This document shows positions 1 to 18,496 of a stretch of 18,496 nucleotides of DNA, one piece after another; position 1 is the stretch's first letter, and every line of letters begins with the position of its first letter. The stretch comes from Scytonema sp. UIC 10036 (lineage in GTDB: Bacteria; Cyanobacteriota; Cyanobacteriia; Cyanobacteriales; Nostocaceae): NCBI RefSeq assembly GCF_009725235.1, contig NZ_WJFC01000253.1, forward strand, positions 1 through 18,496. Direction: 5' to 3'. A program made the position numbers and the translations under genes. The notes under the pieces were generated by a model. That model searched no databases and was not told the DNA's origin. It worked only from the letters and a program-made list of their open reading frames with translations.

Positions 1-76
1 CAAGTCCATAGATACCTTACTCAGTATCCTTGTTCTCATGAGAACAAGGATACTGAGTAAGGTATCTATGGACTTG
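1..76. repeat. Left hairpin telomere (protelomerase target palindrome)
   Basis: Bases 1-38 are the exact reverse complement of 39-76, a perfect 76-bp palindrome with its axis at 38|39. The central 24 bp (27-50, half-site TCCTTGTTCTCA) and the arms ACCTTACT/AGTAAGGT (14-21 and 56-63) are shared with the palindrome at the other end; the five bases between core and arm are not. Protelomerase targets are perfect palindromes cleaved near the axis and rejoined as hairpins, and a protelomerase gene lies at 14377. The natural end is therefore probably the axis, with 1-38 being the complementary strand read round the turn. Alternatively the sequence records a telomere junction of a replication intermediate. 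Confidence 0.93.
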
Positions 77-595
77 TGCATATGTGCATTTATTCATGCT
101 TGCGTTACTTAACCGTCTTGTCTATGCATATATGCCTTGATATGTCCCCTTGTCTATAGATAATATCTCTGTTTTAGTCCTCTAGTATATCCATATACGA
201 GCTTGTCACGAGCTTGTCAAGGCATAGGTGCATGGCTTAACCTTCTAGTGCATGGATATGTATGCATATACAAGCTTGTGTTTAGCCTAGTCCAGGCATA
301 CGTGCATGGCTTAACCTTCTAGTCTACACATCAAAACTCATAAAAAAGACGATTTTGGTCACGTCTTTACTGAATCTCTATTCCCTAACCCTCTTGTACA
401 CTCATTATCTATTAACTTGACCCTTGGTATACAGATAATGGCGTTCCAACTCCCACTATTAGGTTTAACCCTCTAGTACAGGCATAGCGGCATTCACAGT
501 TCCCATAGATTTTTACCCCACTATTACCTCTTACCCATTGGCAATTCCAATGATTGTGGCTTGCGATCGCATGGCGCAAGCGTAGCTATCGCATT
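77..595. repeat. Left terminal inverted repeat (diverged)
   Basis: This stretch matches, in inverted orientation and the same order, 17885-18420 at the other end. The best blocks are a 29-bp perfect match (221-249 versus 18236-18264), the segment around 339-400 with AAAAAAGACGATTTT (versus about 18107-18157), and a 24-bp perfect match (536-559 versus 17925-17948) that contains CATTGG/CCAATG arms. Small length differences show that the two copies are drifting and not being copied exactly. No gene is evident. Confidence 0.85.
106..487 (+). repeat. Left telomere-proximal iteron array
   Basis: A recurring motif reads CTTAACCTTCTAGT followed by an A/T-rich CAT or ATA tail. I count about eight or nine copies of varying quality near 109, 144, 174, 237, 282, 311, 384, 413 and 465. 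Two of them lie in a 29-bp direct repeat (221-249 and 295-323, one mismatch). An 11-bp tandem, CGAGCTTGTCA, sits at 198-208 and 209-219. Arrays like this are typical of binding sites for replication, partition or end-binding proteins. The protein is not known, but the same motif recurs at 14314 and 15424. Confidence 0.8.
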
Positions 596-800
596 CAGCC
601 CCAATACCCAATCCCCAGTCCCAATCTGCCCTACTCCGAGCGCAGCGCGTCACTGGCTACCGCGTCCACTCCCAGTCCACCGCGCTACTGGCTACCGCCT
701 TATTAACGAAACTTGTGCTTTTCGTTAATAAACACCGCGCTACTGGCTACCGCGTTCACCGCGTCCACTCCCAGTCCACCGCGTCCACTTCTCCGGCTGC
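595..800. repeat. GCG-rich and heptamer repeats, inner left terminal repeat
   Basis: CCCAATC/CCCAGTC-type heptamers at about 599-627 are followed by repeated CGCGTCCAC and ACCGCGCTACTGGCTACC units. A 24-bp unit occurs exactly at 661-684 and 760-783, and a 21-bp unit at 678-698 and 733-753. The same sequence style lies at 17617-17880 in inverted orientation. Short tandem heptamers are common in filamentous cyanobacterial genomes. Open frames through this block are low-complexity Pro/Ser/Arg translations and were not called as genes. Confidence 0.7.
700..731. repeat. 12-bp perfect hairpin inside a direct repeat
   Basis: TTATTAACGAAA (700-711) pairs perfectly with TTTCGTTAATAA (720-731) across an 8-base loop. 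It is AT-rich in a GC-rich setting and is flanked on both sides by the same 21-bp unit (678-698, 733-753). This looks like a small inserted hairpin or a tandem-repeat unit; I cannot tell which. Confidence 0.6.
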
Positions 801-1777
801 TCGTTCACCGCGCCCACAAAAACTCGCAGTTGTGATTTGGGTTCCTGTTTTGTACCTCTTGTCAATTACGACTATTGTAAAATCAAGCTTTTCTCAATAA
901 CTTTGGTTCTCTACAAGGTACATCCACCGCGTCCACCATTACCCATTACCAAATCCCAATTAAGAGTCCACCTCAAATACTTCGTATGCGTATATTACGA
1001 ACCCGTTAGTAGTCACGCTCGATAAATATATAGATTGAACAATTTGCATGACTACGACTACCAATTAAAGATTTCTCCATGACTACTAGTATTGAGCGCT
1101 GTATCCCAATCCGCCTTGAAATCGCTTATAAGACACTTTAGCCCTATAAGTAGGGATTACATCGTTTTAGGGAATCAATCACCATTACAGGCGATTCTGA
1201 AGTGAGTATTGATGTAAAGCCTTGTTATTACGACGGTGTGTGATAAGTCTTTTAGGAGATTCAGCTTATTTCAGAAACCACGATTCTTGTGAAATCAGTC
1301 AGTTTTTTAAGAGTATAGACAGCACAAAACAGCGTCTTAACTGTCACGATTTTTTAGACAAAACAATACTGCGTCTTAATTATCGTCTTTAGACACTGAG
1401 ATAAAAGTATATTTTTCTACTTGTTATCGACAGAACTTAGCCGCAAGTAGATTTTTGACGACGCATGCTGTTTTCAGCAATCGCCTTGGCATTACTTGAC
1501 CGTTCGACGCTTTCCAATCGCCTTTACCACTGGGGAGTTACAGAAACCTACTTTCACAAGTAGCTTGGTCGGTCTTTCTCGCTGTACGCATTGTTGAGCA
1601 TACAAACGCCGGATACACTTCGCATCTAGCAGTACCCAGCATTGCCGCTCATAATTTTACCAGAATTGCTCAGTTGAGAGTGAGAAAAGATTTTTTGAAA
1701 AAAGCTCTAAACCGCTATAAACCTCTGCCATATGGGCATCCTAGAGATTAGAACTGGAGAAGAGAACTGGGAAAAAG
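801..1777. other. Gene-poor region between left terminal repeat and first operon
   Basis: I see no convincing gene in this 1-kb stretch. Bases 800-1025 hold two short overlapping open frames without good start signals. Bases 1030-1450 are AT-rich, with direct repeats of the type GCGTCTTAAnTnTC near 1331 and 1372 and several GTCTTTA/TAAGAC words. A short fragment at 1079-1141 reads like 20 residues of coding sequence and then stops, which may be a gene remnant. Bases 1450-1700 are more GC-balanced but contain no frame worth calling. Confidence 0.5.
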
Positions 1778-2302
1778 ATGAAAGGAAAAGAGATTTCGCC
1801 GGAAGTATGGATCGAGATTAGATCTGCCTATATCGAAGGTCAAGCGACCTTAGCTGAATTAGCGTTACGGTATGGAGTAGGTAAAAGTACTCTAATGAAT
1901 CGAGCGAGTGCGGAAAAGTGGACAACGCTAAAAAAAGCTGGTGTTACTGAAAGTGAGAGCAGTAAAACTGATGATACCGATGATAGTTACGACGTTGAAA
2001 TATTACAACCGAAAATCAAGCCCAAACTGAGAGTAATAACCCCTGGCTCATACTTTCAGCAAACAGAAGAAATTTTGGACGACGCGATCTTAAGTCTGCA
2101 TGAAACACTACCTCAAGCCCGTGTGAAATCGCTAGAGGCAGCAGCGATCGCACTGGCTCGACTGCTTGAATTGAGACAAAAGATGACACCTCCGACCGCC
2201 GTCGATCTGGCTGAGAGAGCGATTGAATTGGGCATCGATCCTCATATGTTCATGCGAGAGCTAAAAGAGAAATGGGCTTTGCGTCAGGCATCCAATCCGT
2301 AA
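1778..2302 (+). CDS. Helix-turn-helix DNA-binding protein, small-terminase-like N-terminus
   Basis: The 174-residue product begins with a helix-turn-helix at about residues 8-50 (SPEVWIEIRSAYIEG, then LAELALRYGVGKSTLMNRA and EKW). This arrangement is seen in phage small-terminase and related DNA-binding proteins. An acidic linker (55-75) follows, then a helical C-terminal half (95-170) with no motif I recognise. No large terminase is present, so packaging is unlikely; a transcription regulator or plasmid maintenance role is more economical. It is first of three same-strand genes (next at 2351 and 2655). The upstream ribosome site is weak (GGGAAAAAG just before ATG). Function is inferred only from the HTH. 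Confidence 0.75.
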   Translation: MKGKEISPEVWIEIRSAYIEGQATLAELALRYGVGKSTLMNRASAEKWTTLKKAGVTESESSKTDDTDDSYDVEILQPKIKPKLRVITPGSYFQQTEEILDDAILSLHETLPQARVKSLEAAAIALARLLELRQKMTPPTAVDLAERAIELGIDPHMFMRELKEKWALRQASNP

Positions 2303-2350
2303 ATGTTCTGTAGTTTTTGGGCAAAATGACTTAGGAGTGAGGATAAATAA

Positions 2351-2650
2351 ATGCAGAGCAGAGCGAGCAGAATTGAGCTTTTAACGACATGCCGAGAGAT
2401 TCAGGCGTTGGCAAAGCGTCATGAGCGAGAGGGATTCGATTTTTCAAAGATTGAAGTTGACTGGTACCGCTCGCGGCAACCGGATTTCGTAAAGCTTCTA
2501 GACAAATACCATCGGTTGAAGTACGGGCAACCAGCTCCAAATGACACGGGCTGGATTGAAGGTGAAGGAGTAGAAATCACTACTTCAGCCCGGTGGCGGG
2601 AAGCAGAGGAAAAACGTAAGGCGCAACCTCAAAGAAAATCTTGGAAGTAA
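2351..2650 (+). CDS. Hypothetical protein, 99 aa
   Basis: A small charged protein of unknown function. A strong Shine-Dalgarno (AGGAGTGAGGA) sits about eight bases before the ATG. The sequence is Arg/Glu/Lys/Trp-rich with no membrane segment or signal peptide. It contains a helical N-terminus with TCREIQALAKRHE, a WYRSRQPDFVKLLDKYH stretch, and a basic tail ending KAQPQRKSWK that could contact nucleic acid. It follows the 1778 gene by 48 bases and precedes the 2655 gene by four, so the three are probably co-transcribed. I do not recognise the family. Confidence 0.7.
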   Translation: MQSRASRIELLTTCREIQALAKRHEREGFDFSKIEVDWYRSRQPDFVKLLDKYHRLKYGQPAPNDTGWIEGEGVEITTSARWREAEEKRKAQPQRKSWK

Positions 2651-2654
2651 AGCG

Positions 2655-2834
2655 ATGAACAAGCACGCAGCCAAACAGCATTTGCTGAACCTCCAGAGGT
2701 ACGCTATGAACTCAAGCCGTAAGGATTGGCAGAAAAGCTGGCAACAGTATTCCGCCGTCTTGCTTTCTAGCTATCGTTCGCTGTTCGGACGCGAGCCAAC
2801 AGAGCCGGGATGGAACGATTTCGAGCTTTGGTAG
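2655..2834 (+). CDS. Small hypothetical protein, 59 aa
   Basis: A 59-residue frame starting MNKHAAKQHLLNLQRYAMNS and ending WNDFELW. The ATG lies four bases after the upstream stop, with GGAAG some ten bases before it, and a strong stem-loop (2843-2871) follows eight bases after the stop. The Trp-rich, Gln/Ser/Arg composition resembles its upstream neighbour (both carry W/Y-rich patches and a GW near the C-terminus), hinting at related or interacting products. Function unknown. Tight spacing and a downstream terminator-like hairpin are the main support. Confidence 0.6.
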   Translation: MNKHAAKQHLLNLQRYAMNSSRKDWQKSWQQYSAVLLSSYRSLFGREPTEPGWNDFELW

Positions 2835-2842
2835 CTACGGCT

Positions 2843-2871
2843 TTTCAAAGTGGTCAACGTCCACTTTGAAA
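2843..2871 (+). terminator. Stem-loop after the 1778-2834 operon
   Basis: TTTCAAAGTGG (2843-2853) pairs perfectly with CCACTTTGAAA (2861-2871) across a seven-base loop, starting eight bases after the last stop codon. No T-run follows, so this may be an mRNA 3' end stabiliser or a weak terminator and not a classical intrinsic terminator. Confidence 0.5.
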
Positions 2872-3020
2872 TCACGTACTGTAAGCAGGTAAGAAAAGTT
2901 ACAACCAAAAAATTTGGAAGTAACTGTATGCGATAGGGATTGCAAAGCAAAATTGTTGCTCAATTGTTGCGTAATGATTCAGCAAAACCCTGCCAAATGG
3001 CTATTTCAAGGTAGCTCCTA

Positions 3021-3040
3021 TGTTGCGCGATCGCGCAACA
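3021..3040. repeat. 20-bp perfect palindrome with HIP1 core
   Basis: A perfect 20-bp palindrome has the cyanobacterial HIP1 octamer GCGATCGC at its centre (3027-3034). It lies 15 bases beyond the repA stop codon, between two convergent transcription units, and could act as a bidirectional transcript end. No T-run follows on either strand. Confidence 0.5.
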
Positions 3041-3055
3041 CGACCAGAAAGGAAT

Positions 3056-6000
3056 TCATGAGAATTCTGGCTGATTCTGCCAACAAACCCATTGCCTGAT
3101 TCGCTCCTTCACTTCATCTGAAAGGAATTTCACAGCTGCTTTGAGCGCTTGAGCGGGAATAAACTTTCTCAAGTCAAATAACTTTTGTGAGTCGTCACAC
3201 GCTTCGAGCAACTCAGCTGTGTATTGAATTGCTTCTGGCTGTAGCCACTCCTCAACCTGAGTGCTGTGCTGATTGCTAACTTCCTCAGTTGCGATCGCAG
3301 TTGGCTCATGTTTTACCGCCGCTATTACCGCCGCTGCTTTTTCAGCTGCCACCGCGTCACGCTCCAGCCAAGCTTTGAAAACCTCATCCCGATGATCGCT
3401 GATTGGGATTGCTTTTCCATTGGCATCCAGAATTATCCTTCCTGAAATTGGGCATCTTTCAAACTCAGCCGCCGCTTTACCCCATACTCGGATTTGTTTT
3501 CCCCTGCCTCCTTCACGACGGAGGAACGGGAACCGATACCCGATTAATCCCATTAGCGATTGCAGAACCGTGATAGGTGATTTAGCTTTACTAAAATCAA
3601 TTCCCAGTACCAGCTTTAAGCTGTAAAGATTTTTGGGGTCTTTGCACTTTTTAAAAACTTCTACGGCTAATGGGTGAAAATTAGTAATCTCATCAACAGC
3701 TAACAACTCCTCAAACTTGAGCCAGTCTAGCGCGTCAATTTCTTTGCTAATTAACTTGCGATTGGTGTCTACCTTGAAGTAATCCCCATTTCCATTAACG
3801 AGAGCGGTACGGAAAACGTTTTTATCCCTGTCCCCTAAAAACTGTCTGCCTTCACCAAAGTAGTAATGCGTTCGCAGTTGAGCGTACCATCCATCCTCAT
3901 CCTTCTCCACTAAATCGGGGGTAACGGGGACGTTGTACCGCCGCTCCAATTCTGCTTTCCTAAATTCCAATTGCTCACTTTGAGTTTTGCACTGCTGGCG
4001 ACTCAATCGCTCGTACTTGGAATCATCCACACTGTCCGCCGCCGATACCGCTTCTCGGTACTCCAGATACTCCTCATCACAAGTTTGGTTAATGTCCTCC
4101 TTTAAAGCTTCCGATTCGTTCTCCTTGGGCATATCATCCAAATCGCGGGCATCTAAAATGTGATGACCTTCACTCGCTAGATCTTCCAAGATTTGCTGCA
4201 AGTAGTGGCTCATGCCCAAGTTAATCAGCACTCCCATCTTTGCCCAAGTTTGCAAGCAGCAAGGCTCAAAGTTACCATCAACGCTTTCCTCTAAACCCAG
4301 ATGTATCAGCTTTTGAATGTTAGCTTTGTCTTTTTTGTGCTCACCCGCTAGCAATCCCTTAACCGTAGTAGCACCATTGCCAACTCGGTTAATCCCTACC
4401 GATTTAACCCACAGGTAGCGCGGTACTGGGAGACGATAGCGCGATAAATGCTGACGGACACTATCAGTCGCTTGTACACCCTGAAATATTCCCCAGACTC
4501 CATCAAAGTGCTTCTCTTCTATGCTGACACCAGTTTCGATTGTGGGAGTAGCGATTACCAAGTCATAGTCTTTGATGACTTCATTAATGTTCGCGGTACA
4601 ACCATAAGCGGGATGCTTCGGATCTGCTACAGATTCCGAATCAATTCTTAGAATCCGTAGACTAGGTCTTTTCTTAGCAAAGTAAGCTTCTAAATTGCGG
4701 CTACCCCACTTTGATTTTGCTTTCTGTCCGGAGACGCAAAGCAAATGTTTCTCACCAGCTTTTAGCTTTTCTTCTAGCATCTTTACCAGTGGAGCTGGCG
4801 AGTCACCACCAAAACGATAAACTTTCCAAGGTTGCTGGAATTGATATTGGTTTTCTACAATCCATGGCTTAATATCAAACCCCAGTAATCCCTTGATAAA
4901 GTCGATGCTGATATCATTTAAATCGGCATCAGCGATTAAGATTTTACCCCCGTAGTTGACGATATTAAGCAGAAGTTGCTTGAGAGTTTTGATGATAGAT
5001 ACTCGCTCAGCTTGACAAGTTTTTGAATTTAAAAGATGCCAAATCACTTGCTGAACTTCATCAATTATCAGCCAACATCCCCGCCACTCTTCGGGGTTAA
5101 ATCTCGCTTGTGATTTTGGGTGTAAGCTATCGATGCACATCCCCATACCAAAAAGTGACCCTTGCTCACTGCTCTCTGTGATGTAGGGAATGCCCAAGCG
5201 ATTAGCTGTTTGTGTTGAAAGCTGGACGCGGTGAGTTATGAGCAAGACCTTGCGCTCACCACTCCTAATCACCGGGTCTGTGAACCACGCTAACCACTCA
5301 GTTTTCCCCGTACCTTTAGGGGCTTTTAAGCCAATGAGTTGTTTGTCATTCGGGGGGATAAACTCTCCTAAATACCGTTGGTTAAGCAGCAAGTCCACTG
5401 GGTAAGTTAAGCGCTTTAACTGGTGAGTTTGCCATTGGCTAAAGCTGAGGGTAGCTCGGTAAATTGCATCAAACTGTTCGGGACCATGGGACACAATAAC
5501 GTCATCAACTCCCTTCCCTAGCAGAGGATGCCAAGACATTACCCCAACTTCACAACCCGCTTTGATGAAAAGCTTGGCAGTTTTAGCAAGCGCATCATTA
5601 ACGTCACGAATGGTATTCCGTTTTGAGTCGGAGTCAAAGCAAAGATAAATTCTTCGTCCCGATTGAGCAAAAACCTGTAGCTGTGGAATGAGTGAGGGAT
5701 TACCTATCTTCTCCCCAAACTCGTTTTTTGGTTGCCGATACCCGTTGCGAACTCCCGGTAATGCTACCGCGACATATCCACAGCTGAGAATAGAGGCTGC
5801 TTTTTTTGCGCCTTCCACAATTACTACTGGGATTTGTGGATTTTGAATAACCCACTGCCAAAATGCACCGAATGGTAAGCTTTGATAGTCCTCAGGTAAC
5901 GCGACATCATACCGCCGCGCTATCAACTCCCAGATCCGAGCAGGAACTCTTAGGGCGATGATTTCAGTGGGGACTTTTAGTGGTGATTCGTATTTGACGG

Positions 6001-6637
6001 TTTTGCCATTACTGTCTTGACGTGGTGTATCCGGCTTGAATTGACCCCATAACCCATCCTCAAAGGTCAACAGGTCAATTCCATCAACCCACCAACCGCC
6101 GTTCTCCACATGGCGATATCGCTTGAGCGTACCCTCAGCTACACGCCCATCATTACGACGGTCAATTTTTTCGCTGTAAAACAGGTACTCGTAGGGCGAA
6201 TGACCAGACAGAGAGTGAAAATTGAGCGAAGCTATCTCTCCATCTACGCGGCTTTGTGCTACGATTTCTTGCCAATGCTTTTGATGTAATCGTGCGTAGT
6301 CTTCTTGATTTCCTGCGCTGTCTGTGGAGGGCAATTCTGAGGAATCAAGACAACTTCCCCGGTTTGAGGAATCAGTATCAGTTCTTGCGAGAGGGAGATC
6401 GCTTCCTTGGCTTGACTGAAAGTTTGCCCCGATTCCATCAGGTTTTTCAGAGCTTGTCTTTCGATTGTCTTCTGCTTGCTGGTCTTTTTCAATTCCTGAG
6501 ACTTCTTGCAAAACCCTTGAGCCATATTTCCGTTCTCCCAATCTAATTTGCCTAAAAGTTTTTCGGACTTGCTGCTGTAGCGATTTCTTGGGCGCTACCA
6601 CCTTTCCAAAACCTTTGGAGGAGCGACCGTTTAGCAT
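3056..6637 (-). CDS. repA: CyRepA1-type plasmid replication protein (primase/helicase-like)
   Basis: The 1193-residue product is the replication initiator candidate. The first ~105 residues are basic then Ser/Asp/Gln-rich and probably disordered. A DUF3854/Toprim-like region follows: VVIVEGAKKA (271-280), then YLCFDSD with paired acidic residues (331-337) and GVDD (376-379). A helicase module comes next: Walker A APKGTGKT (439-446), Walker B LIIDEV (523-528), ATPTIETGVSI (696-706) and an Arg-finger-type VRQHLSRYR (727-735). This order is that of the cyanobacterial CyRepA1 plasmid replication family as I know it. GGGAGGG lies about seven bases before the ATG. It is transcribed leftward from the long structured intergenic region at 6638-7738, which carries two TTCCGGAAC sites. 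An overlapping frame covers residues ~38-126. Confident of family, less of the exact N-terminus. Confidence 0.88.
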   Translation of the reverse strand: MLNGRSSKGFGKVVAPKKSLQQQVRKTFRQIRLGERKYGSRVLQEVSGIEKDQQAEDNRKTSSEKPDGIGANFQSSQGSDLPLARTDTDSSNRGSCLDSSELPSTDSAGNQEDYARLHQKHWQEIVAQSRVDGEIASLNFHSLSGHSPYEYLFYSEKIDRRNDGRVAEGTLKRYRHVENGGWWVDGIDLLTFEDGLWGQFKPDTPRQDSNGKTVKYESPLKVPTEIIALRVPARIWELIARRYDVALPEDYQSLPFGAFWQWVIQNPQIPVVIVEGAKKAASILSCGYVAVALPGVRNGYRQPKNEFGEKIGNPSLIPQLQVFAQSGRRIYLCFDSDSKRNTIRDVNDALAKTAKLFIKAGCEVGVMSWHPLLGKGVDDVIVSHGPEQFDAIYRATLSFSQWQTHQLKRLTYPVDLLLNQRYLGEFIPPNDKQLIGLKAPKGTGKTEWLAWFTDPVIRSGERKVLLITHRVQLSTQTANRLGIPYITESSEQGSLFGMGMCIDSLHPKSQARFNPEEWRGCWLIIDEVQQVIWHLLNSKTCQAERVSIIKTLKQLLLNIVNYGGKILIADADLNDISIDFIKGLLGFDIKPWIVENQYQFQQPWKVYRFGGDSPAPLVKMLEEKLKAGEKHLLCVSGQKAKSKWGSRNLEAYFAKKRPSLRILRIDSESVADPKHPAYGCTANINEVIKDYDLVIATPTIETGVSIEEKHFDGVWGIFQGVQATDSVRQHLSRYRLPVPRYLWVKSVGINRVGNGATTVKGLLAGEHKKDKANIQKLIHLGLEESVDGNFEPCCLQTWAKMGVLINLGMSHYLQQILEDLASEGHHILDARDLDDMPKENESEALKEDINQTCDEEYLEYREAVSAADSVDDSKYERLSRQQCKTQSEQLEFRKAELERRYNVPVTPDLVEKDEDGWYAQLRTHYYFGEGRQFLGDRDKNVFRTALVNGNGDYFKVDTNRKLISKEIDALDWLKFEELLAVDEITNFHPLAVEVFKKCKDPKNLYSLKLVLGIDFSKAKSPITVLQSLMGLIGYRFPFLRREGGRGKQIRVWGKAAAEFERCPISGRIILDANGKAIPISDHRDEVFKAWLERDAVAAEKAAAVIAAVKHEPTAIATEEVSNQHSTQVEEWLQPEAIQYTAELLEACDDSQKLFDLRKFIPAQALKAAVKFLSDEVKERIRQWVCWQNQPEFS
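6259..6525 (-). CDS. Possible overlapping 88-aa gene inside the 5' part of repA
   Basis: An 88-residue frame (MAQGFCKKSQELKKT...) lies in another frame of the same strand, covering repA codons ~38-126. It has its own ATG with GGGAGAACGGA a few bases upstream. Its composition looks like a normal soluble helical protein, with LSQELILIPQTGEVVLIPQN and a basic tail KSIGKKS. The repA frame in the same place is Ser/Asp/Gln-rich and low complexity, as often seen when a sequence is constrained by another frame. It ends just where the recognisable RepA core starts. It could encode a copy-control or Rep partner protein, or be a chance frame. I cannot decide from one sequence. Confidence 0.38.
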   Translation of the reverse strand: MAQGFCKKSQELKKTSKQKTIERQALKNLMESGQTFSQAKEAISLSQELILIPQTGEVVLIPQNCPPQTAQEIKKTTHDYIKSIGKKS

Positions 6638-6690
6638 GGCTCATTCCCTCCCATCTGCTTGAGGGCAAAGCTAGCTTTCAAAAAACAAGC

Positions 6691-6718
6691 CGTTTTGATG
6701 TTCCGGAACATTAAAACG
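6691..6718. promoter_or_regulatory. Palindromic operator upstream of repA (TTCCGGAA core)
   Basis: A 28-bp palindrome with a single mismatched pair is centred on ATGTTCCGGAACAT and flanked by CGTTTT/AAAACG. Weaker symmetry extends it to about 50 bp. It lies 54 bases upstream of the repA start. TTTTGATGTTCCGGAAC recurs exactly at 6795-6811, 102 bp away, and TTCCGGAAC recurs at 8202-8210 before an HTH gene. This looks like a repressor or Rep-binding operator. Confidence 0.6.
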
Positions 6719-6794
6719 ACTCGTTTTTTAGACGTTCGCCAACGGGCAAAAGGCAGTTTCTTTAAGGGTTTGAGCGCGAACCAACAAGAGTTCC

Positions 6795-6811
6795 TTTTGA
6801 TGTTCCGGAAC
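6795..6811. promoter_or_regulatory. Second TTTTGATGTTCCGGAAC site upstream of repA
   Basis: A 17-bp exact copy of the left part of the 6691 palindrome, lying 158 bases upstream of repA. The spacing of 102 bp between copies is close to ten helical turns, which would suit looping between bound proteins. That interpretation is inference. Confidence 0.5.
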
Positions 6812-7024
6812 CAAGATTTTGACTTTCGCGAGTGGGTCAACGATCGGCATTGCTCAAGCGAAACTCGAAGCGAAGGAGATGGAGAAGCGAGGGTCAATTT
6901 TAGCGGTGAGACGAGCAGAAAAAACCGCGTCAAAAATTGCCACGTCAGAGAATCCCTGAGTGCCAGAATGCTTATCCAATAAAGATTTGACGAGTTGAGC
7001 TTGTTGCAAAGGAGCGAACAATAC

Positions 7025-7710: not shown

Positions 7711-7738
7711 AGCGACAAAAGTCAATGCTTTGGCAGGG

Positions 7739-10772: not shown

Positions 10773-10815
10773 TTGTTAAGCGCTTAACATTGAGCATTCA
10801 TTAGGGGAGTAAATC

Positions 10816-13134
10816 ATGCTCCCTTTTCTTGTAAAAACATTTGAGGTCGTTATGTCTAGATTTTTGAACAATGCAGTTCTAGTTGGTTCTTTGTTGATTT
10901 GTGGCGGTGGAATTTGGAGTTTTACCCGTACTAACAACAATCCAATACAACATACGCTAGCTCTTTCTATTGCGGTAGCAGGTGGTACCACAGCAGTAGG
11001 TTGTATTGCGTTCGGTGCTTTGTACGGTGCTGAAGCTGAAGAAAAAATCAGAAAAGCTAGTCAAAAACACGAAGTTGAAATATCCGGTAATAAATCTGAA
11101 ATCACTACTGTTAGAAAATCTCTTGAAGATATCCGACTAGAAAAACTCAATCTTGAACGTCAACTCGAAAAGCACTTGTATGAGAGCAATTTTGAGATTG
11201 AAAAGCGAGACACAGCAATACAGATTCTCAATCAAAAAGTAAAAACTATCGAGGCTGAGTACCTTGTCAAAGTTCAAGAAATTAACCGCAAGCTCGAAAC
11301 TGAAGACAAGCGAGTAGAAGAATTTCTAACCAACTTTAAGCAGTCGATGCTAGACGGACTCATTAACAAAGTTGAGTCTTTAGATTATCTCTACTCAGAT
11401 ATCGAACGCAAACTAAATGATGAACATTTCACAGCAGTACATCCAGCATTGGCTAAGCGATTAGAAGAAATTCAGAAAATTTACGATAAATGCAATGGTG
11501 TTATTCGTAATTTTGAGGCACTGGATATCACAGCTTATGAAACCATGCTGGAGTATTTCTGGCAAATTACTAGCGATGTTTCGGCTGTAAGGGTGAGGTA
11601 TCGTAATTCTCTAAACTCAGCAACACAACAACGTAAAGAAGAATTAGAGAATCAAATTATCAACTCTGTAAGTAAAGAACGTGCAAAAGCTACCTTGAAA
11701 GAATACTCTGACTTTCAACGCAAGCAACTTGACGATTTAATCTTAAAAGTAGATGAGACTAACGCCGAATGGAAGCAACTTAAGGACGCACTGTTGAAGG
11801 ATTTAGAGACGGCACACCTAGAAATTGACAAGCTTAACCAACAGATAGCCGAACTACAAAAACCATTGCTGGCAATAGGAGACAGTACATACGCTCGAAC
11901 TGCCAACCGTATTGCTATGTACTACTTTGACCAGTACAAGTATAAGCTTGATGTAATCCAATGGGATGAGAGCGACACAGGGTACTCTATCTTATTTGCC
12001 ACTAGACGCAATCCAGGGTTAACCGAAAAAGAGTTATTACCTGAAAACACACTTGAACAGTTAGCAGCGTTTACAAACGCCCTACAGGGTACGTTACCCA
12101 AGTTCACTTTTAACTACCAACACTCAACCGTGACGCTCGATGTGACCCTACGCAAACCAGCTAAGAAAGAGCAAGCCAAGGGTGACATAGATAAAATTTG
12201 GATTCCCGTAGATCGGTTTGAAAGCTACGTTAAAAACTGGGAACGGGTCAGGATTACTGCAGGTAGCACCGGGGGCAAGTCACCCACTGCTAAAAACTTG
12301 GCACTGGCAATCATGAAAGGTCGTAACGGTCAGGGCGAAATTAGATTGTATGACCCCCAGCATGGATCGAAAAAGGACTACTGGGACATGCCCAAGTGTG
12401 GAACGTCCCATGAGGACAATGTAACGGGGATGGGTGAACTGTGTGATGAGTTAGATCGGCGTACCAAGTCCCCACAAGCCAATCATCCGTTTATCCTGTA
12501 CATCTTTGATGAGGTAGACTCGACCATTGCCCAAGAGCGAGCAAACAACGGCTATTACTACTTTAGGGACAAAGTGACTTACTCACTCAAGCAAGCGTCA
12601 CATCAAAACATAGGCGCTATCTACATCGGTCAAGCGTGTGACGCGTCCACCATACCAGGTATGAGTTGGTCGGACTGGAACAACGCGGTTCAAGTCCACA
12701 TTGGGGCTAATGCTGGCATTTGGATAAATAAATCAAACTTGACTGCTGAGGATAAAACCCGATTGCTTGAACAGTACCGCAAGATTCAAGAGTACTGTGA
12801 CCGCAAGAATGAAGAATTGGGACTTGATATTTTTACTGACCCCACAGCTTATAGATTTGCGTTAGCAGTACCTCTCACTGGCTTACCTAAATTCATTCAA
12901 TTACCCGATTTCGATAGTTATGATTACTATGAGATAATGAAAAAAAACGTGCTAAATAATAGTTCTCCACAGCGAGAGAGTGAATTGGTAGAGTCTGTAA
13001 TTTCCCAGTTTGAGTCAAAAGAAAAAATAATGTGTCCTCACTGTGGTTCAGAAGAATATCGCTCTAAGGGAGAAAGATGGCTGTGTCTAAATCAAGATTG
13101 TGGTAAGACTTGGCTAAAGAAACCTAAAAATTAG
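10816..13134 (+). CDS. Membrane-anchored FtsK/HerA-type ATPase with C-terminal zinc ribbon
   Basis: A 772-residue probable DNA-translocating ATPase. Two membrane segments (about 16-36 and 46-72) are followed by a long coiled coil (75-350). The P-loop domain has Walker A AGSTGGKS (482-489), DPQHG (513-517), Walker B LYIFDEVD (561-568) and a downstream Gln motif IYIGQACD (602-609), the pattern of the FtsK-HerA superfamily. The Walker A has Ala where Gly is usual. The C-terminus carries CPHC...CLNQDC, a four-cysteine zinc ribbon like those of some transposase N-termini. Two starts are credible: 10816 (GGGGAG upstream) and 10852 (GAGGT upstream); the first GGGAG can pair with CTCCC just after its ATG. 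No relaxase or capsid is present, so segregation or mobilisation is more likely than packaging. Confidence 0.8.
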   Translation: MLPFLVKTFEVVMSRFLNNAVLVGSLLICGGGIWSFTRTNNNPIQHTLALSIAVAGGTTAVGCIAFGALYGAEAEEKIRKASQKHEVEISGNKSEITTVRKSLEDIRLEKLNLERQLEKHLYESNFEIEKRDTAIQILNQKVKTIEAEYLVKVQEINRKLETEDKRVEEFLTNFKQSMLDGLINKVESLDYLYSDIERKLNDEHFTAVHPALAKRLEEIQKIYDKCNGVIRNFEALDITAYETMLEYFWQITSDVSAVRVRYRNSLNSATQQRKEELENQIINSVSKERAKATLKEYSDFQRKQLDDLILKVDETNAEWKQLKDALLKDLETAHLEIDKLNQQIAELQKPLLAIGDSTYARTANRIAMYYFDQYKYKLDVIQWDESDTGYSILFATRRNPGLTEKELLPENTLEQLAAFTNALQGTLPKFTFNYQHSTVTLDVTLRKPAKKEQAKGDIDKIWIPVDRFESYVKNWERVRITAGSTGGKSPTAKNLALAIMKGRNGQGEIRLYDPQHGSKKDYWDMPKCGTSHEDNVTGMGELCDELDRRTKSPQANHPFILYIFDEVDSTIAQERANNGYYYFRDKVTYSLKQASHQNIGAIYIGQACDASTIPGMSWSDWNNAVQVHIGANAGIWINKSNLTAEDKTRLLEQYRKIQEYCDRKNEELGLDIFTDPTAYRFALAVPLTGLPKFIQLPDFDSYDYYEIMKKNVLNNSSPQRESELVESVISQFESKEKIMCPHCGSEEYRSKGERWLCLNQDCGKTWLKKPKN

Positions 13135-13440
13135 TTTAGCTAATAGTAATTGGGCATTAATAGGGGTTCTGACGCTCAATTGCTTAGTGACAAGACTGAT
13201 GACAGCCGTCCTGACACGCGTCACAACCGCGTCAACACAATAGCTAAAAGTATTGATATTACGTGGTTGACGCGTCCGGGACATTTCCCTATAGGGGGGT
13301 GGCTGACATCTGGGACATTTGGGACAATCGCTCAGAATTTACGTTAGTTGAATTTCAAAGTCTAGAAAATCAGCATTTACATAAATAAATTAATTTATAT
13401 TAAATAAAGTACCAGTTATAGAAAAACGAATTAGGGATTT
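13135..13440. other. Intergenic region with GGGACATTT boxes and CGCGTC repeats
   Basis: A 306-bp non-coding stretch. ACGCGTC words recur near 13217, 13229 and 13270. GGGACATTTCCC (13278-13289) is followed by tandem GGGACATTT-GGGACAA (13312-13327). Downstream, 13375-13420 is very AT-rich and may hold the promoter of the 13441 gene (TTTACA near 13378 with TATATT further on), ahead of AGGG at the start codon. A 65-codon frame here lacks a good start and is not called. Confidence 0.45.
13278..13327. promoter_or_regulatory. GGGACATTT boxes upstream of the 13441 gene
   Basis: Three GGGACA boxes, two in tandem with a 9-bp period, resemble the tandem GGGACAAA boxes at 8066-8086 (11-bp period). The shared word at two separate promoter regions suggests one regulator controlling both transcription units. 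Confidence 0.4.
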
Positions 13441-14292
13441 ATGATAGCTCATGACTTGATAAAAACTGAATCAGGATGGAAATGTAAGGTCTGTGATTGG
13501 CTGTGGCAAAGCAAGCCTAAAACTGAATGTCCCGGTGTAACTAGATATAACTGGCTTCATCCAGATTGCTTAAAAACTACTATCGACCTCCAGAAAAAGA
13601 ATCTCAAGCCTAAAGATGAGAATAAGCCAGATGCTTGTATTTATTCACAGAAGAGATGCTTTTGGATCTGGCTATATGATGAGAAGAATTGTGAGATAGA
13701 CAACCTCGATTTACCACCGATTTACCAGTGGAATAATAGAGGGGAACTGAAAACAGTAGGTGAATTAAGAAAAATAAATTTAACTCCCAGTGAAGATATT
13801 AAGCCAGATGGAGTAGCTTGGGTGTGGGATAAAGAGGAAGAGTGTGGGGTGTGGATACCTCTTTATCTGACTGCTAGCTGTAATTGGAAAGCGAGAGATA
13901 ATTGGATTACCAAATCAGCTTTAAAGCAGAAGTATTTGCTATCAGACGGATGGATTAAAAAACTAGGTCAGCCCGATAAAAAACTGGAGAATCGTAATTA
14001 TCGCAATGCCGCACCGATTCAGCTTTACTCCAGGCAAAGAGTAGAGGCATTCCTAGCAGAAAATGCCACTGAGTACGCTCACTGGCTAGACAAGCGAGAA
14101 AAGCACTTGGCAATCTTTGAGGCTAATAAGGACAAGATTTTTGAGCGTCGGAACTTGATTAAGGAACAAACTGCTAAGTGTTTGAGGTGTGCTTCTGGTT
14201 GTTCGTTGCCGGATGGCTTCTTTTGTGCCATCCATCCCACTGGAGTGCAATATATGCCGTGTCCTGACTGGGTAGAACGTTCAAGTGAGTAA
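13441..14292 (+). CDS. Cys-rich zinc-binding-like protein, XPA-like middle segment
   Basis: A 283-residue protein with putative metal sites at both ends: C15/C18/C30/C43 near the N-terminus and C247/C250/C254/C262/C274 near the C-terminus. Two internal repeats of about 29 residues (NLKPKDENKPDA... at 54-80 and NLTPSEDIKPDG... at 113-142) share NLxPxxxxKPD plus an aromatic-rich strand. Residues 155-205 (ITKSALKQKYLLSDGWI, then APIQLYSRQRVEAF) recall, from memory, the DNA-binding helix region of XPA-family proteins. That resemblance is tentative. AGGG sits close before the ATG. It directly precedes the protelomerase gene, so a DNA-binding accessory to end processing is possible but unproven. 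Confidence 0.65.
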   Translation: MIAHDLIKTESGWKCKVCDWLWQSKPKTECPGVTRYNWLHPDCLKTTIDLQKKNLKPKDENKPDACIYSQKRCFWIWLYDEKNCEIDNLDLPPIYQWNNRGELKTVGELRKINLTPSEDIKPDGVAWVWDKEEECGVWIPLYLTASCNWKARDNWITKSALKQKYLLSDGWIKKLGQPDKKLENRNYRNAAPIQLYSRQRVEAFLAENATEYAHWLDKREKHLAIFEANKDKIFERRNLIKEQTAKCLRCASGCSLPDGFFCAIHPTGVQYMPCPDWVERSSE

Positions 14293-14313
14293 GAGAGGGA
14301 ATATCTCATGACT

Positions 14314-14349
14314 AACCCTCTTGACGCTCGCTGTCTCCTTGGCTAAACT
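14314..14349 (+). promoter_or_regulatory. Protelomerase promoter with overlapping telomeric iteron
   Basis: TTGACG (14321-14326), 17-base spacer, then TAAACT (14344-14349) matches a sigma-70-type promoter, 28 bases before the protelomerase ATG. The iteron word TAACCCTCTTG (14313-14323) overlaps the -35 box; the run AACCCTCTTGACG is repeated exactly at 15424-15436 and TAACCCTCTTG also at about 386 near the left end. A protein bound here would block the promoter. Confidence 0.6.
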
Positions 14350-14368
14350 TAAATGACTGATTCAGGTA

Positions 14369-14379
14369 AGTAAGGTATG
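14369..14379 (+). promoter_or_regulatory. Telomere-arm sequence at the protelomerase start codon
   Basis: AGTAAGGTAT (14369-14378) is identical to ten bases of the left telomere arm (56-65) and overlaps the protelomerase ATG at 14377. It includes the AGTAAGGT common to both telomeres. Binding by the enzyme to its own gene or mRNA start would give autoregulation; chance is not excluded. Confidence 0.35.
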
Positions 14380-15411
14380 TCTAGACCAGTCAAATTAGCG
14401 GATGAATTAGAAAACACTTTTATTGACGATCGAGTTAAGCAACTGCTACCCGTGTTTGAAGCTCTCGCGCCGTACAAGCTGAATCAGCGTAAGAAGGGGG
14501 TAGGCGACATCCCAGGATGGGAACGACTAGCGGCACAGGAAGCGCGACTACTCAAGCTCACTTACCCAGACGATAAGCCAGAGGATGAAAAGGAGTATGG
14601 AACTTGCTTGAGACAAGTTACGGCACTCAAAAAAGCGCTTAAAGCATCTGCTAAGACTGACTTGAAAGACCCTGCTTTGGTGAATCCAGTCACAACCATC
14701 ATTTCTCACTTTGGCAACGCTCTTAGCTATTTGTTTAGTGAGTACAAAGAACGTCAAAACGTTAGATACAGGGAAAAAGTTACCGAACGAAGGCAGAAAG
14801 AAAACCGCGTTTTGATTGACCTGACCAACTCCCTTAAGTTTGCCCAAAGTGTCTTGACTGAGGTAGCAGAGGGGAAAAATCCTAACTGGAAAGATGTTTC
14901 TTGTGCTGTCGCACTTGCCACGGGTAGACGGATGGGAGAAGTACACTGCTCGGCTGAGTTTGAGCAGTCAGATGATTATGAGATTGCTTATAGGGGTCAA
15001 CTCAAGGGCAAAGACCGCAAGGTAAAGATAGGAGCTAAAAATGTTCCAGTGAGAAAAGCTACTTTTTACATTCCAACCCTGTTATCAGCCGAACTGATTT
15101 GTATGGGATTAGATTGGCTTGAGGCTAAGGGTAAACGTTTAGGAAGAAATGAGGATGCAGAAACTGTTAACCGTCGTTGGTCAAAAGTTTTGAATCTGGC
15201 TGTAAAAAATTGGGACATCTTCCCAGAAGATGAGCGTACTTACCACAAGTTCCGTGCTGCTTATCTACGGGCTTGTATAGCCAATGACCCAACAGTTGAC
15301 CCCTACGACTTTACCGACTATGCCAAGGACATCTTAGGGGATGACGACGAAAATACCATCAATGCTTATAAGCGCTACGAAATCAAACCTGGTACTTTAA
15401 CTAAAATTTAA
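14377..15411 (+). CDS. tel: Protelomerase (telomere resolvase)
   Basis: A 344-residue member of the TelN/TelK/TelA/ResT group, which cut palindromic telomere duplexes and rejoin them as hairpins using a tyrosine nucleophile. The helical N-terminal part (1-150) would grip DNA. The catalytic domain shows ATGRRMGEV (181-188; Arg-I), GQLKGKDRK (Lys, about 210-215), YHKFRAAYLRA with H290/R293 (HxxR position) and DDDENTINAYKRYEI with Tyr331 as likely nucleophile (Y334 is the alternative). The residue nine before Tyr331, usually His in LGH, is Asp322. Length is short compared with TelN (about 630) and nearer ResT/TelA. Perfect palindromes at both ends of this sequence supply the substrate. Promoter at 14321-14349; AGG in the leader. 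Confidence 0.88.
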   Translation: MSRPVKLADELENTFIDDRVKQLLPVFEALAPYKLNQRKKGVGDIPGWERLAAQEARLLKLTYPDDKPEDEKEYGTCLRQVTALKKALKASAKTDLKDPALVNPVTTIISHFGNALSYLFSEYKERQNVRYREKVTERRQKENRVLIDLTNSLKFAQSVLTEVAEGKNPNWKDVSCAVALATGRRMGEVHCSAEFEQSDDYEIAYRGQLKGKDRKVKIGAKNVPVRKATFYIPTLLSAELICMGLDWLEAKGKRLGRNEDAETVNRRWSKVLNLAVKNWDIFPEDERTYHKFRAAYLRACIANDPTVDPYDFTDYAKDILGDDDENTINAYKRYEIKPGTLTKI

Positions 15412-15423
15412 AATCTCTGTACC

Positions 15424-15460
15424 AACCCTCTTGACGTTAGTAAAACTAGAGGGTTAGTAT
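15424..15460 (+). promoter_or_regulatory. Promoter/operator of the 15472 gene with two inverted iterons
   Basis: TTGACG (15431-15436) and TAGTAT (15455-15460) lie 18 bases apart. One iteron, AACCCTCTTGACG (15424-15436), overlaps the -35 box. A second, in inverted orientation (CTAGAGGGTTAG, 15446-15457), fills the spacer and reaches the -10. The pair can also form a stem (AACCCTCT/AGAGGGTT), so a terminator-like RNA after the protelomerase gene is an alternative reading, though no T-run follows. Confidence 0.6.
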
Positions 15461-15471
15461 AGGTATATTGA

Positions 15472-16719
15472 GTGGAACAAAACAAGCATATGACCCAAAG
15501 TGAATTAGCAGCAAAAATTGGTTCTCAATTAGCTGAAAAACTTCAAGGTGTTACTGATGAAAAGAAAATCAAAGCTTTGACCGTCAAAGCTTGGAAACAG
15601 TTAAGGGAAGCAATTAGAAACCCTAGCAGTTTCAGTTCTAGAGGCTTATCCGGAATTCGCAAAGTAGTTAAAGAGGCATTTCCAGACAGCGAAACCCCTA
15701 AACGGGGCTACTACCACACAACTCAAGGTAAGGGACAAGTATCGCGTTACGAGCATCTAGCGCTCTGGTATCTAACAGCAAACACTGACCGATGGGAAGT
15801 CACTGGGGATGAGGCGAGACAAGCATATTTTAACAACCTTCCAGAATTACCCAAATTTGAACCACAACCCGAAACACATCCCGAAGTACAGCCCGAAGCA
15901 CAGCCCGAAGCACAAACTATTAAGTTAGAAGATATGACATTGCAACAATTAGAACTAGACACTGAGACTCAAGCGATTGTTGAAAATGCTCTTGCTCACT
16001 CTGGAATGAGCCTACCCGACTTTATCAAACAAGCTTGTAGAGTGTATGCCCGAACTGTAGTAGGCAAGGCTGAACAAGCCAATAAAACTGACTTGAGCAG
16101 TATACCCACATCAGAACTACTCAATCCCGTTATACCAGAAGGTAAGAAAAAATCCACAATGGCGACATTACCAGGACGGGCTGAGGAATTGGCTAGACGC
16201 GCTATAGTCGCTATCACGCATCACAACGATATGGCTACTGAAAAATCACAAAAGTGGTGTCTTACTGGTACTGCTATCAATGCTCTAACGGGGTCAAAGA
16301 TGACATTAATTAAGAACGTTATGGAACAGTACAAAACGATGATTGATGACCATAACAGCAAACACGGACTCAATCCCTACGACAATAGAGGACGGTCAAC
16401 GAAGATTGAAGAAGACATCGATTTTGTAAATTTCTCTGAGTCAGTCGCACCAGTGACAGCCGCACCAAAAACGACCACACCAGAGACAACCGCACCATCC
16501 GCAAAACGACCAGAGGTAAAAAAAACCAAGTTAAAAATTGAGACTATGCCCGTCAACTCGTCTGCTTTGGAAATTTGGGAATTCTTACAGCAAAACCCCA
16601 ATACGAAAGCGCGTATCAAAGACGGCAGGAAAGCGCTTCATTACTTGCCAGTCACAGACGACAACGGAAATATGACAGCTATGCAAATTGAAGAAACTGG
16701 AGAAGTGATTCAACTTTAG
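15472..16719 (+). CDS. Unknown 415-aa protein, candidate iteron/end-binding or partition protein
   Basis: Begins at GTG 15472 (AGG upstream); ATG 15490 is equally possible and gives a longer 5' leader. Residues 1-120 are helical with RGLSGIRKVVKEAF and a basic patch. A Pro/Gln repeat linker (PEVQPEAQPEAQ, 137-148) follows. Residues 160-195 (LELDTETQAIVENALAHSG, then MSLPDFIKQACRVYA) resemble a ribbon-helix-helix or short HTH helix pair. Residues 235-317 (RAEELARRAIVAITHHND, KWCLTGTAINALTGSK, DDHNSKHGLNPYDNRG) look like a domain I recall from cyanobacterial plasmid proteins. A Thr/Pro linker and a small C-terminal domain complete it. Telomeric-type iterons overlap its promoter. Binding the ends is inference. 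A strong terminator follows. Confidence 0.7.
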   Translation: MEQNKHMTQSELAAKIGSQLAEKLQGVTDEKKIKALTVKAWKQLREAIRNPSSFSSRGLSGIRKVVKEAFPDSETPKRGYYHTTQGKGQVSRYEHLALWYLTANTDRWEVTGDEARQAYFNNLPELPKFEPQPETHPEVQPEAQPEAQTIKLEDMTLQQLELDTETQAIVENALAHSGMSLPDFIKQACRVYARTVVGKAEQANKTDLSSIPTSELLNPVIPEGKKKSTMATLPGRAEELARRAIVAITHHNDMATEKSQKWCLTGTAINALTGSKMTLIKNVMEQYKTMIDDHNSKHGLNPYDNRGRSTKIEEDIDFVNFSESVAPVTAAPKTTTPETTAPSAKRPEVKKTKLKIETMPVNSSALEIWEFLQQNPNTKARIKDGRKALHYLPVTDDNGNMTAMQIEETGEVIQL

Positions 16720-16752
16720 CTAAGCTGAGGTCAAATGTAGCACTTCTGCCAA

Positions 16753-16778
16753 CTCGCTACTTTTAGTAGCGGGTTTTT
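16753..16778 (+). terminator. Rho-independent terminator
   Basis: CGCTACT-TTT-AGTAGCG, extended by a T-G and a C-G pair, is followed by TTTTT (16774-16778), 34 bases after the stop of the 15472 gene. It ends the protelomerase-15472 transcription unit. Confidence 0.8.
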
Positions 16779-16844
16779 GTGTGGTGAACGAGTGTACGCT
16801 CGTTACGGCGTAGTGGCGGTTATTGTCGGGATTTAGGCGATTAG

Positions 16845-17507
16845 TTAGGAGTTGTTAAAGGGATGAGAGGGAGAGTGGGTAGGGGATTGGTTGATGTCGG
16901 GATAGGAGTATTTCCCGACATCTCCCCCCACAGGTGACAGCATAGCCAAGCTCGAAGCCGCACCCAACACCTGTTCTTCCGTTACCTCAAGATACTTCTG
17001 TAACTGCTCTAAGTTTCGATGTCCCGATATCTCCTGAATCACTCTCAACGGTATGCCAGCATTACTCATTTGGGTTAGGGCAGTCCGTCTAAAACTGTGG
17101 GTACTCACTCCAGTTATCCCAACACGAAAGCAAGCACTTCTCAAAATTCTTGCGGCTGAGTCCTCACTGATATGCCCGTTACTCCTACCGGGAAATAAAT
17201 AAACCGATCCTGCCAGTGAGCGGTAGTGGCAAAGCAGCTGTCTCAAGTCCTCAATCACTGGTATAGACCGCGTTGCCAGTTTACCTTTACTGTTGGCTTT
17301 CCTGATTATTAGCTTTGGTCTAACCAGCCCTTTGGGCGTGTAAATGTCTGATGTCAACAGGGTACACGCTTCACGAATCCTACAACCGCTAAACAGGCAT
17401 ACACCAAACAAAGTGCGATCGCGGTCATTTTCTAGCCCGTGGTTGAAAATTTGTTGTATCTCTTGTTGAGTAAGGATTTTAGCTCTGCCGTGCCGATTGA
17501 CTTTCAT
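16845..17507 (-). CDS. Tyrosine recombinase / integrase, catalytic domain only
   Basis: A 220-residue phage-integrase/Xer-type recombinase. All catalytic residues are visible: Arg43 in SGCRIREA, Lys74 in KANSKGK, His137 and Arg140 in THSFRR, His163 in SGHRN and nucleophile Tyr172 in QKYLEV. The usual N-terminal SAM-like core-binding domain (about 100 residues) is absent, so it is either a naturally short form or a truncation at the 5' side, next to the repeat-rich right end. The C-terminal 30 residues are Ser/Pro-rich and look like drift into non-coding sequence. It points leftward, convergent with the 15472 gene. It could resolve multimers or integrate the element; no attachment site is evident. 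Confidence 0.85.
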   Translation of the reverse strand: MKVNRHGRAKILTQQEIQQIFNHGLENDRDRTLFGVCLFSGCRIREACTLLTSDIYTPKGLVRPKLIIRKANSKGKLATRSIPVIEDLRQLLCHYRSLAGSVYLFPGRSNGHISEDSAARILRSACFRVGITGVSTHSFRRTALTQMSNAGIPLRVIQEISGHRNLEQLQKYLEVTEEQVLGAASSLAMLSPVGGDVGKYSYPDINQSPTHSPSHPFNNS

Positions 17508-17616
17508 CGCTCAACTGTAGACCCTATGTTACAGTTTACGGCTGATGTGACACCTAATTTGATTTCAAGGTCGTAGGGTCACGGAAATGTGAAATTTCTG
17601 GGTCACAGTAGACGCA

Positions 17617-17719
17617 GTGGACGCGGTGGAGATTTGCTTTAAAGCACTTTTGGGTTTGAGGACTGGGGATTGGGGATTGGAAGTGGACGTGGTGGAGATT
17701 TGCTTTAAAGCACTTTTGG
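17617..17719. repeat. 66-bp tandem repeat
   Basis: A 37-bp unit starting GTGGACG and containing GATTTGCTTTAAAGCACTTT is repeated at 17617-17653 and 17683-17719 (one or two differences), a period of 66 bases. GCTTTAAAGC inside it is a perfect palindrome. GTGGACGCGG continues at 17784 and beyond. Confidence 0.7.
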
Positions 17720-17884
17720 AACTGGGGACTGAGGGTTGGGGATTGGGGATTGGGTGTTGGGTGTTGGGGATTAGGGATTGGGAGTGGACGCGGTGTGGAC
17801 TCGCGGTGGACGCGGTAGACTGAGTACCGGGCATTAGGTGTTGGGTGTTGGGCATTGGGCATTGGGCATTGGGGGAGAGTTGCG
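17720..17884. repeat. Heptamer-type tandem repeats, inner right terminal repeat
   Basis: Runs of GGGGATTG, GGGTGTTG and GGGCATT repeated head to tail, with GTGGACGCGGT units between, mirror the CCCAATC/CGCGTCCAC blocks at 595-800 in inverted orientation. Such short tandem repeats are frequent in filamentous cyanobacteria. Open frames through them are low-complexity artefacts. Confidence 0.7.
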
Positions 17885-18420
17885 ATCGCCTTTGGCGCAA
17901 GCTGTACCCAGCTTATCGCCCAAACCACAATCATTGGAATTGCCAATGAATCGGCGGCGGTGATAGGGTAAAAACCTATGGGACTGTGAATGCTGCTATG
18001 TCTGTACTAGAGGGTTAAGCCTAAGAGGGGAAAAAGTTGCGGTAGCGGGAACGCCCTTATCTGTATACCAAGGGTCAAGTTAAGACATGATAGGTGTACA
18101 AGAGGGTTAGAGAATAGAGACTCAGTAAAGATGTGACAAAAATCGTCTTTTTTGATGAGTAGACTAGAGGTTAAGTCATGCACATATGCCTGTACTAGGG
18201 TAAAAACAAGCTTGTACATACATATTTATCTATGCACTAGAAGGTTAAGCCATGCACCTATGCCTGTACAAGGGTAGCCGCAAGCTGATACATGAATGCA
18301 CTAGAGGGTTAAACCAACGATTCTATGTGTAGACTAGGGGACTAAGCAACGCATACATGAGTAGACCAGGGCATTAATGCAGAGATAAGCGACAATGCGC
18401 GACAATTTAGACCAAACGAC
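17885..18420. repeat. Right terminal inverted repeat (diverged)
   Basis: The inverted counterpart of 77-595, keeping the same order of blocks and distances to the telomere within about 15 bases. The AATCGTCTTTTTTG segment (about 18141-18154) and the 24-bp block at 17925-17948 are the non-iteron landmarks. No gene is evident. Confidence 0.85.
17998..18375 (-). repeat. Right telomere-proximal iteron array
   Basis: About ten copies of the iteron, here read on the minus strand (plus-strand form TnTACTAGAGGGTTAAG), lie near 18003, 18061, 18093, 18158, 18188, 18232, 18263, 18295, 18327 and 18358. Quality varies from near-perfect to about two-thirds matching. Orientation is opposite to the left array, so at both ends the motif points the same way relative to the hairpin. 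Confidence 0.8.
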
Positions 18421-18496
18421 TGGTGCAGATATAACCTTACTAACATTCCTTGTTCTCATGAGAACAAGGAATGTTAGTAAGGTTATATCTGCACCA
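18421..18496. repeat. Right hairpin telomere (protelomerase target palindrome)
   Basis: A perfect 76-bp palindrome, axis 18458|18459. The 24-bp core (18447-18470) and the ACCTTACT/AGTAAGGT arms match the left telomere; five bases between core and arm and the outer 13 bases differ. The natural end is probably the axis, with 18459-18496 being read-through. Confidence 0.93.

Follow-up and report, generated by a model that had tools for sequence, protein, structure and literature searches.

A cyanobacterial plasmid contig with predicted hairpin telomeres at both ends and its own telomere resolvase

The 18,496-nt contig NZ_WJFC01000253.1 of Scytonema sp. UIC 10036 (hereafter the window, meaning the whole stretch of DNA analysed) raises the question of whether a cyanobacterium carries a complete linear replicon with hairpin telomeres at both ends, as a first, sequence-only reading had proposed. 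Hairpin telomeres have been worked out in few bacterial systems, namely Borrelia, Agrobacterium and the N15-like phages. The data support the proposal: the core sequence of the window's telomeres was also found at contig ends of other cyanobacteria and, in a set of 388 genomes, only together with a close protelomerase (telomere resolvase). It is highly probable that the window is a whole linear plasmid from a member of the Nostocales, with predicted hairpin ends, the covalent closure of which we infer.

Perfect palindromes with arms of 38 nt each were located exactly at both ends of the window (Table 1); the longest palindrome arm in 100 Markov shuffles was 5-10 nt. The single strands of both palindromes folded into near full-length hairpins of about -40 kcal/mol, and none of 200 shuffles was equally stable. 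Bases 1-38 are the complement of bases 39-76, so the replicon proper begins at 39, and the unit from axis to axis measures 18,420 bp. The 24-nt core common to both ends reads TCCTTGTTCTCA|TGAGAACAAGGA, the outer palindrome arms differing between the ends, and 8-nt boxes are likewise common to both (14-21/56-63 on the left, 18434-18441/18476-18483 on the right). The terminal inverted repeats, counted inward from the axes, were identical at 418 of 535 aligned positions (78.1%, telomere arm included). The perfect palindromes, the shared core and boxes, the diverged inverted repeats and the length of the unit had all been claimed beforehand, and each was confirmed, the core and boxes by their coordinates at both ends.

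The claim of an encoded protelomerase was also borne out by a PF16684 match (Table 1). The family, the fold and the catalytic residues of the product all favour protelomerase identity: R185, K210, R293 and Y331 align with residues that we take to be catalytic in TelK in its native numbering, and H290 occupies the canonical HxxR position, at which the TelK residue is K, giving an altered residue set. Among the matches listed (120 of 239), all close relatives (above about 58% identity) with an organism name were cyanobacteria, of genera that are presumably Nostocales, in agreement with the cyanobacterial origin suggested at the outset. When reference genomes were scanned with an alignment of the resolvase, 26 loci came up, all named as cyanobacteria, and no close relative of the window resolvase was found in viral contigs. 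The viral result bears on the alternative that the window is an N15-kind temperate phage living as a linear hairpin plasmid-prophage. N15 also combines a protelomerase with a plasmid replication protein, and open reading frame 1778 of the window was weakly similar to a small terminase (PHROG, E 1.7e-4), but no capsid, tail, portal or large-terminase match was obtained with PHROG among the 16 proteins scanned and no DNA-level match in phage records, which makes a prophage most improbable.

The core was searched with the pattern TCCTTGYTCTCWWGAGARCAAGGA in 20 resolvase-bearing genomes, entered through 21 of the 26 loci (the other five lay in genomes already covered; L013 was not included), and was present in six. 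In the 388 genomes, which are those of the same order as genome G014, the core occurred in nine and the reversed pattern, as a control, in none. Altogether, 11 searched genomes and one further assembly contained the core (twelve other cyanobacterial assemblies), and several of these relatives' contigs end in it, with CATG or CTAG at the centre. The resolvase profile was positive in 24 of the 388 genomes: 13 at 400 bits or more (including G017, with one internal stop), G183 with the gene in pieces, and ten distant matches at 44-85 bits. All nine core-bearing genomes fell among the 14 with a close resolvase, compared with none of the other 374 (Fisher p 4e-15, over genomes that are not phylogenetically independent). 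The resolvase had first led to four of the nine, two of which (G014 and G019) showed the core before the pattern was written; for the other five (G145, G159, G183, G193 and G233) the DNA pattern was the only route, and they then proved to be resolvase-bearing, G183 with the gene in pieces. Cores stood at both ends of contigs G004:C58 (20,076 nt), G019:C59 (18,151 nt), G145:C70 (16,002 nt) and G011:C209 (89,750 nt), and 8 of the 13 core-bearing contigs in the 388-genome set carried their own resolvase. The window had been called a rare genome form; the rarity is relative, the close protelomerase being carried by 14 of 388 genomes (one in pieces, one with the internal stop).

The same palindromes could have been made by the assembly or the library, either from fold-back chimeras or by an assembler turning at an unrelated inverted repeat. 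Arm lengths were equal within one contig (38/38 in the window, 19/19 in G019:C59, 14/14 in G011:C209, 27/27 in G145:C70 and 20/20 in Fischerella plasmid8) or nearly equal (51/52 in G004:C58). Because the arms are equal at both ends of one contig, a limit set by the assembler is suggested, and the 76-nt length is probably a product of assembly and not biological; 76 = 77 - 1 would fit an assembly k-mer of 77. Arms of (77-1)/2 at both ends, as a de Bruijn k-mer limit would leave them, also suit an artefact, as do the relatives' arm lengths, which likewise follow the contig end. A random event, however, would not settle on a single 24-nt core for the two window ends and for 11 searched genomes and one more assembly, nor would it limit that core to resolvase-bearing genomes within the 388, and an artefact is therefore very unlikely. 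The palindromic contig ends look as a strand turning round at its end would look once assembled. The 76-bp palindrome of the sequence-only reading thus stands as a perfect palindrome, its 76 nt probably marking where the assembly stopped and not the length of a telomere site; as a linear plasmid with hairpin ends, the window would begin slightly beyond one tip and finish slightly beyond the opposite one.

Sequence on the far side of the axis was compared at 20 sites in relatives, where arms ranged from 14 to 1,787 nt. Up to the contig end it was the reverse complement of the sequence before the axis, perfectly at 18 sites and with a single end mismatch at L046 (the remaining site, L049, is given below), and contig G183:C99 (3,574 nt) was a perfect palindrome over its whole length. 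A circular plasmid, or one alternating between circular and linear forms, would instead hold the palindrome as an internal resolution site, and some close relatives are indeed deposited as circular, for example pANACY.06 and Nostoc UHCC 0870 plasmid unnamed11. At the relatives' sites, however, what lies past the axis is the way back, and in the window the two palindromes differ and no sequence follows them or the inverted repeats. In pANACY.06 (L001, NC_019775.1) positions 1-401 form a 99.5% inverted repeat of a stretch ending about 880 nt before the record end, and its circular record is probably a mis-closed linear plasmid. A circular or alternating form of the window is accordingly hard to credit.

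The cumulative GC-skew minimum of the window lay at 54% of its length, and at 51-54% across four contigs with both telomeres, the window included (G011:C209 was not among these contigs, and 20,000 of the 20,076 nt of G004:C58 were read). Such a central minimum is to be expected if replication runs in both directions from an origin in the middle; G019:C59 showed only a small skew rise past it.

Several observations weigh against a hairpin-ended linear plasmid whose telomere is the core. Gene direction confounds the GC skew, the minimum of which fell outside the central range in five longer one-telomere contigs (at 34-71%, or in G183:C54 at 89% of the 20,000 nt read). At L049 the match across the axis extends to only 52 of 60 nt. 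The exact core was absent from the assembly in 14 of the 20 genomes with a close resolvase and in 5 of the 14 close-resolvase genomes of the larger set; many real contig ends near a resolvase had neither core nor repeats, and no resolvase was present on core-bearing contigs G233:C19, G193:C236 and three from G183. In the enzyme itself, D322 aligns with TelK H416, and this Asp is invariant in a 32-row alignment; a histidine at that position is usual and not required in every member. The missing cores may be due to contigs that stop short of the tip: the linear record of Nostoc ATCC 53789 pNsp_f stops two bases into its centre, at ...TTCTCTAG, so that trimmed ends are one cause of missing cores.

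Nineteen non-redundant ends were read toward the tip. Fifteen showed CCTTR-N7-TCCTTGYTCTC(A/T)| and four the same arrangement with N8. The CCTTR box, 7 or 8 nt before the core, was kept in all 19 and, because it lies outside the search pattern, gives independent support for a bound site; CCTTR and TCCTTGYTCTC are likely binding determinants of the resolvase. The tip dinucleotide was AT or TA; a resolvase tree of 14 rows required two changes between them, compared with a mean of 3.7 after shuffling (17-18 of 500 shuffles needed no more), the centre being TCATGA in the window and some relatives and TCTAGA in others. For TelA, PMC3558466 reports that tip changes are tolerated more than changes elsewhere. 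The two centres offer a natural series on how hairpin refolding reads the tip. On the scheme of N15, Borrelia and TelA, CyRepA1 would start replication inside the molecule and a resolvase dimer would bind each duplicated telomere; the resolvase would cut 6 bp apart around TCATGA, with refolding and resealing of each half to follow.

Hairpin linear plasmids have been known in Nostoc since 2018, and the kind of replicon is therefore known (PMC5987646). In that paper, Nostoc sp. N6 plasmids pNPM8, pNPM9 and pNPM10 are linear, like the window, with terminal inverted repeats, and their hairpin ends were deduced from palindromic reads together with a fall in coverage; no word starting with "telomer" occurs in its main text. 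The window is set apart from them by its end motif: their conserved motif AAATTAACRGAC is not at the window ends, and its two matches at two mismatches, neither near an end, compare with a chance mean of 4. Unlike the Agrobacterium system, in which TelA serves a chromosome, the replicon here is a plasmid whose resolvase is 16% identical to TelA, and the Agrobacterium telomere flanks presumably differ in sequence from the window telomere. The central TCATGA is nevertheless the native TelA target according to PMC3558466, where one clause concerns cyanobacteria with hairpin ends. Like N15 TelN and phiKO2 TelK, the window resolvase has the catalytic domain PF16684 (62% of the protein aligns with that of N15, at 27% identity) and is encoded by a single linear replicon; unlike in those phages, no virion genes were matched, the enzyme has 344 aa compared with 558 residues in the TelK chain, and the TelK telomere centre, as given in PMC3558466, is CGCGCG. 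Borrelia ResT, from one plasmid, serves chromosome and plasmids according to PMC4379921, unlike the 8 of 13 core-bearing contigs with a resolvase of their own. Terminal proteins of the Streptomyces linear-plasmid type (tpg/tap) were not among the families in general Pfam and NCBIfam scans (15 and 9 proteins), which included no tpg/tap-directed search.

Fischerella NIES-4106 plasmid8 and plasmid6, also from a cyanobacterium, each have inverted ends and a gene resembling PF16684, but their resolvase is only 27-31% identical and their palindrome is different; on sequence grounds they are a second cyanobacterial telomere class. Both are deposited as circular. Plasmid8 (L005, AP018306.1) has perfect 40-nt palindromes at 1-40 and 20627-20666, and plasmid6 (L006, AP018304.1) a 2,213-bp perfect terminal inverted repeat (1-2213). 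Inside the latter repeat, a 102-nt ErmO-srmA resistance gene was predicted in PLSDB at 1-102 and 24488-24589, probably a false call. A search by sequence can reveal linear replicons in assemblies already on record, some being deposited circular or end-trimmed.

No description of the telomere class, its repeats or its partner gene was found in the literature searched, and the core points to a little-described bacterial telomere family that would be recognisable by sequence. New here are a polarised subtelomeric repeat, with further copies next to the gene for the resolvase, and an unnamed neighbour gene conserved at 25 of 26 loci.

Table 1. Features of the 18,496-nt window
Feature	Position	Strand	Remarks
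Left telomere, hairpin read through tip	1..76	.	Perfect palindrome, axis 38|39; DNA fold -39.7 kcal/mol
Telomere core, left, 24 nt	27..50	.	Central TCATGA 36-41; core also in other genomes
Left terminal inverted repeat	39..600	.	C[AT]AGAGG on - strand starting 476, 396, 120, tip-pointing; 120 by looser pattern
CyRepA1-family plasmid replication protein, 1193 aa	3056..6637	-	NF042913, 438 bits; DUF3854
772-aa protein	10816..13134	+	P-loop, Walker B, N-terminal membrane segments; motifs by eye
Subtelomeric-type repeat upstream of resolvase gene	14313..14323	-	Repeat pattern
Telomere resolvase, 344 aa	14377..15411	+	PF16684, 128 bits
Inverted pair of subtelomeric-type repeat	15427..15452	15427-15433 -, 15446-15452 +	Between resolvase and next gene
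Conserved neighbour gene, 409 aa	15490..16719	+	Candidate telomere-binding autoregulator (inferred)
Xer-like tyrosine recombinase, 220 aa	16845..17507	-	PF00589, 90.6 bits
Right terminal inverted repeat	17898..18458	.	C[AT]AGAGG on + strand at 18007, 18099, 18301
Right telomere, hairpin read through tip	18421..18496	.	Perfect palindrome, axis 18458|18459; DNA fold -40.2 kcal/mol
Telomere core, right, 24 nt	18447..18470	.	Central TCATGA 18456-18461

The repeat C[AT]AGAGG, a pattern derived from the window itself, was counted in the last 700 nt of the 19 ends, some of which share one genome and are not independent. It pointed to the tip 76 times and away from it 0 times (without the two window ends, 69 and 0 in the other 17); the next 800 nt inward held three toward the tip and two away. 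The looser AC[AT]AGA gave 118 toward and five away, with a tip bias in 16 of the 19 ends; four ends had no C[AT]AGAGG. A regular 43-nt spacing characterised a single family of ends: L045, L046, L049 and L051 (G233 and G193) held 22 of the 24 intervals of this length. The repeat was also enriched beside the resolvase gene, with 25 occurrences in 4,480 nt downstream (160 nt) and ten in 4,329 nt upstream, compared with 51 in 294,732 nt in the rest of 28 loci, a background that leaves out the outer 1.5 kb and the resolvase gene. Minisatellite-like repeats of the GGGATTGGGTGTTGGG and GGACGCGGT types, partly inverted, adjoin the inner edges of both terminal repeats of the window (600-800 and 17600-17880).

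Homologues of the neighbour gene, for which an upstream GTG at 15472 would give 415 aa, adjoin the resolvase in 25 of the 26 genome loci (L019 being the exception) and on all three close plasmids, and stood beside none of the distant resolvases of three plasmids. The gene also adjoins the resolvase in several further genomes, sometimes in the opposite orientation. The protein had 73 database matches, itself counted; weak partial matches on seven cyanobacterial plasmids with no listed resolvase indicate that the two genes are not exclusively paired. The protein matched nothing in Pfam, NCBIfam or among PDB folds; weak Pfam matches of its family were led by TacA1, NikA-like and DUF6290 (7, 6 and 3 of 36 members; best E 0.0027), which we take to be ribbon-helix-helix families. 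We propose that the neighbour protein may bind the repeats, both those of the ends and those close to the gene that encodes it. With the protein on the polarised end repeats and the same repeats lying by the resolvase gene, end occupancy could be tied to resolvase expression. A tentative extension, more doubtful than probable, is an undescribed two-part Nostocales telomere system, in which a TelA-like resolvase would act with a DNA-binding partner, encoded next to it in almost every case, that would coat polarised iteron-like subtelomeric arrays directed toward the tip, the same repeats controlling the resolvase, as a bacterial end-capping complex on hairpins. Telomere sequence, resolvase and a candidate third component are here tied together across filamentous cyanobacteria, and the repeat and the neighbour gene raise the question of whether dedicated end-binding proteins exist at bacterial hairpin telomeres.

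A Nodularia contig (REBL01000078.1, 89,750 nt; L023 and L031) has a telomere core at either end and two resolvase genes, each lying some 7 kb in from its end and pointing outward. Contig G183:C92 (L066, L082) belongs to a genome with three telomere-bearing contigs, in which the resolvase is present only as two separate pieces.

Of the other window genes, the 772-aa protein and the Xer-like recombinase recur in relatives. The former had no Pfam family at cut-off and has diverged homologues (21-32% identity) in 23 of the 33 loci L001-L033. The Xer-like recombinase was often more conserved than the resolvase (75-87%, about ten loci), with an 83% copy on Fischerella plasmid6, as if it were exchanged between linear plasmid families.

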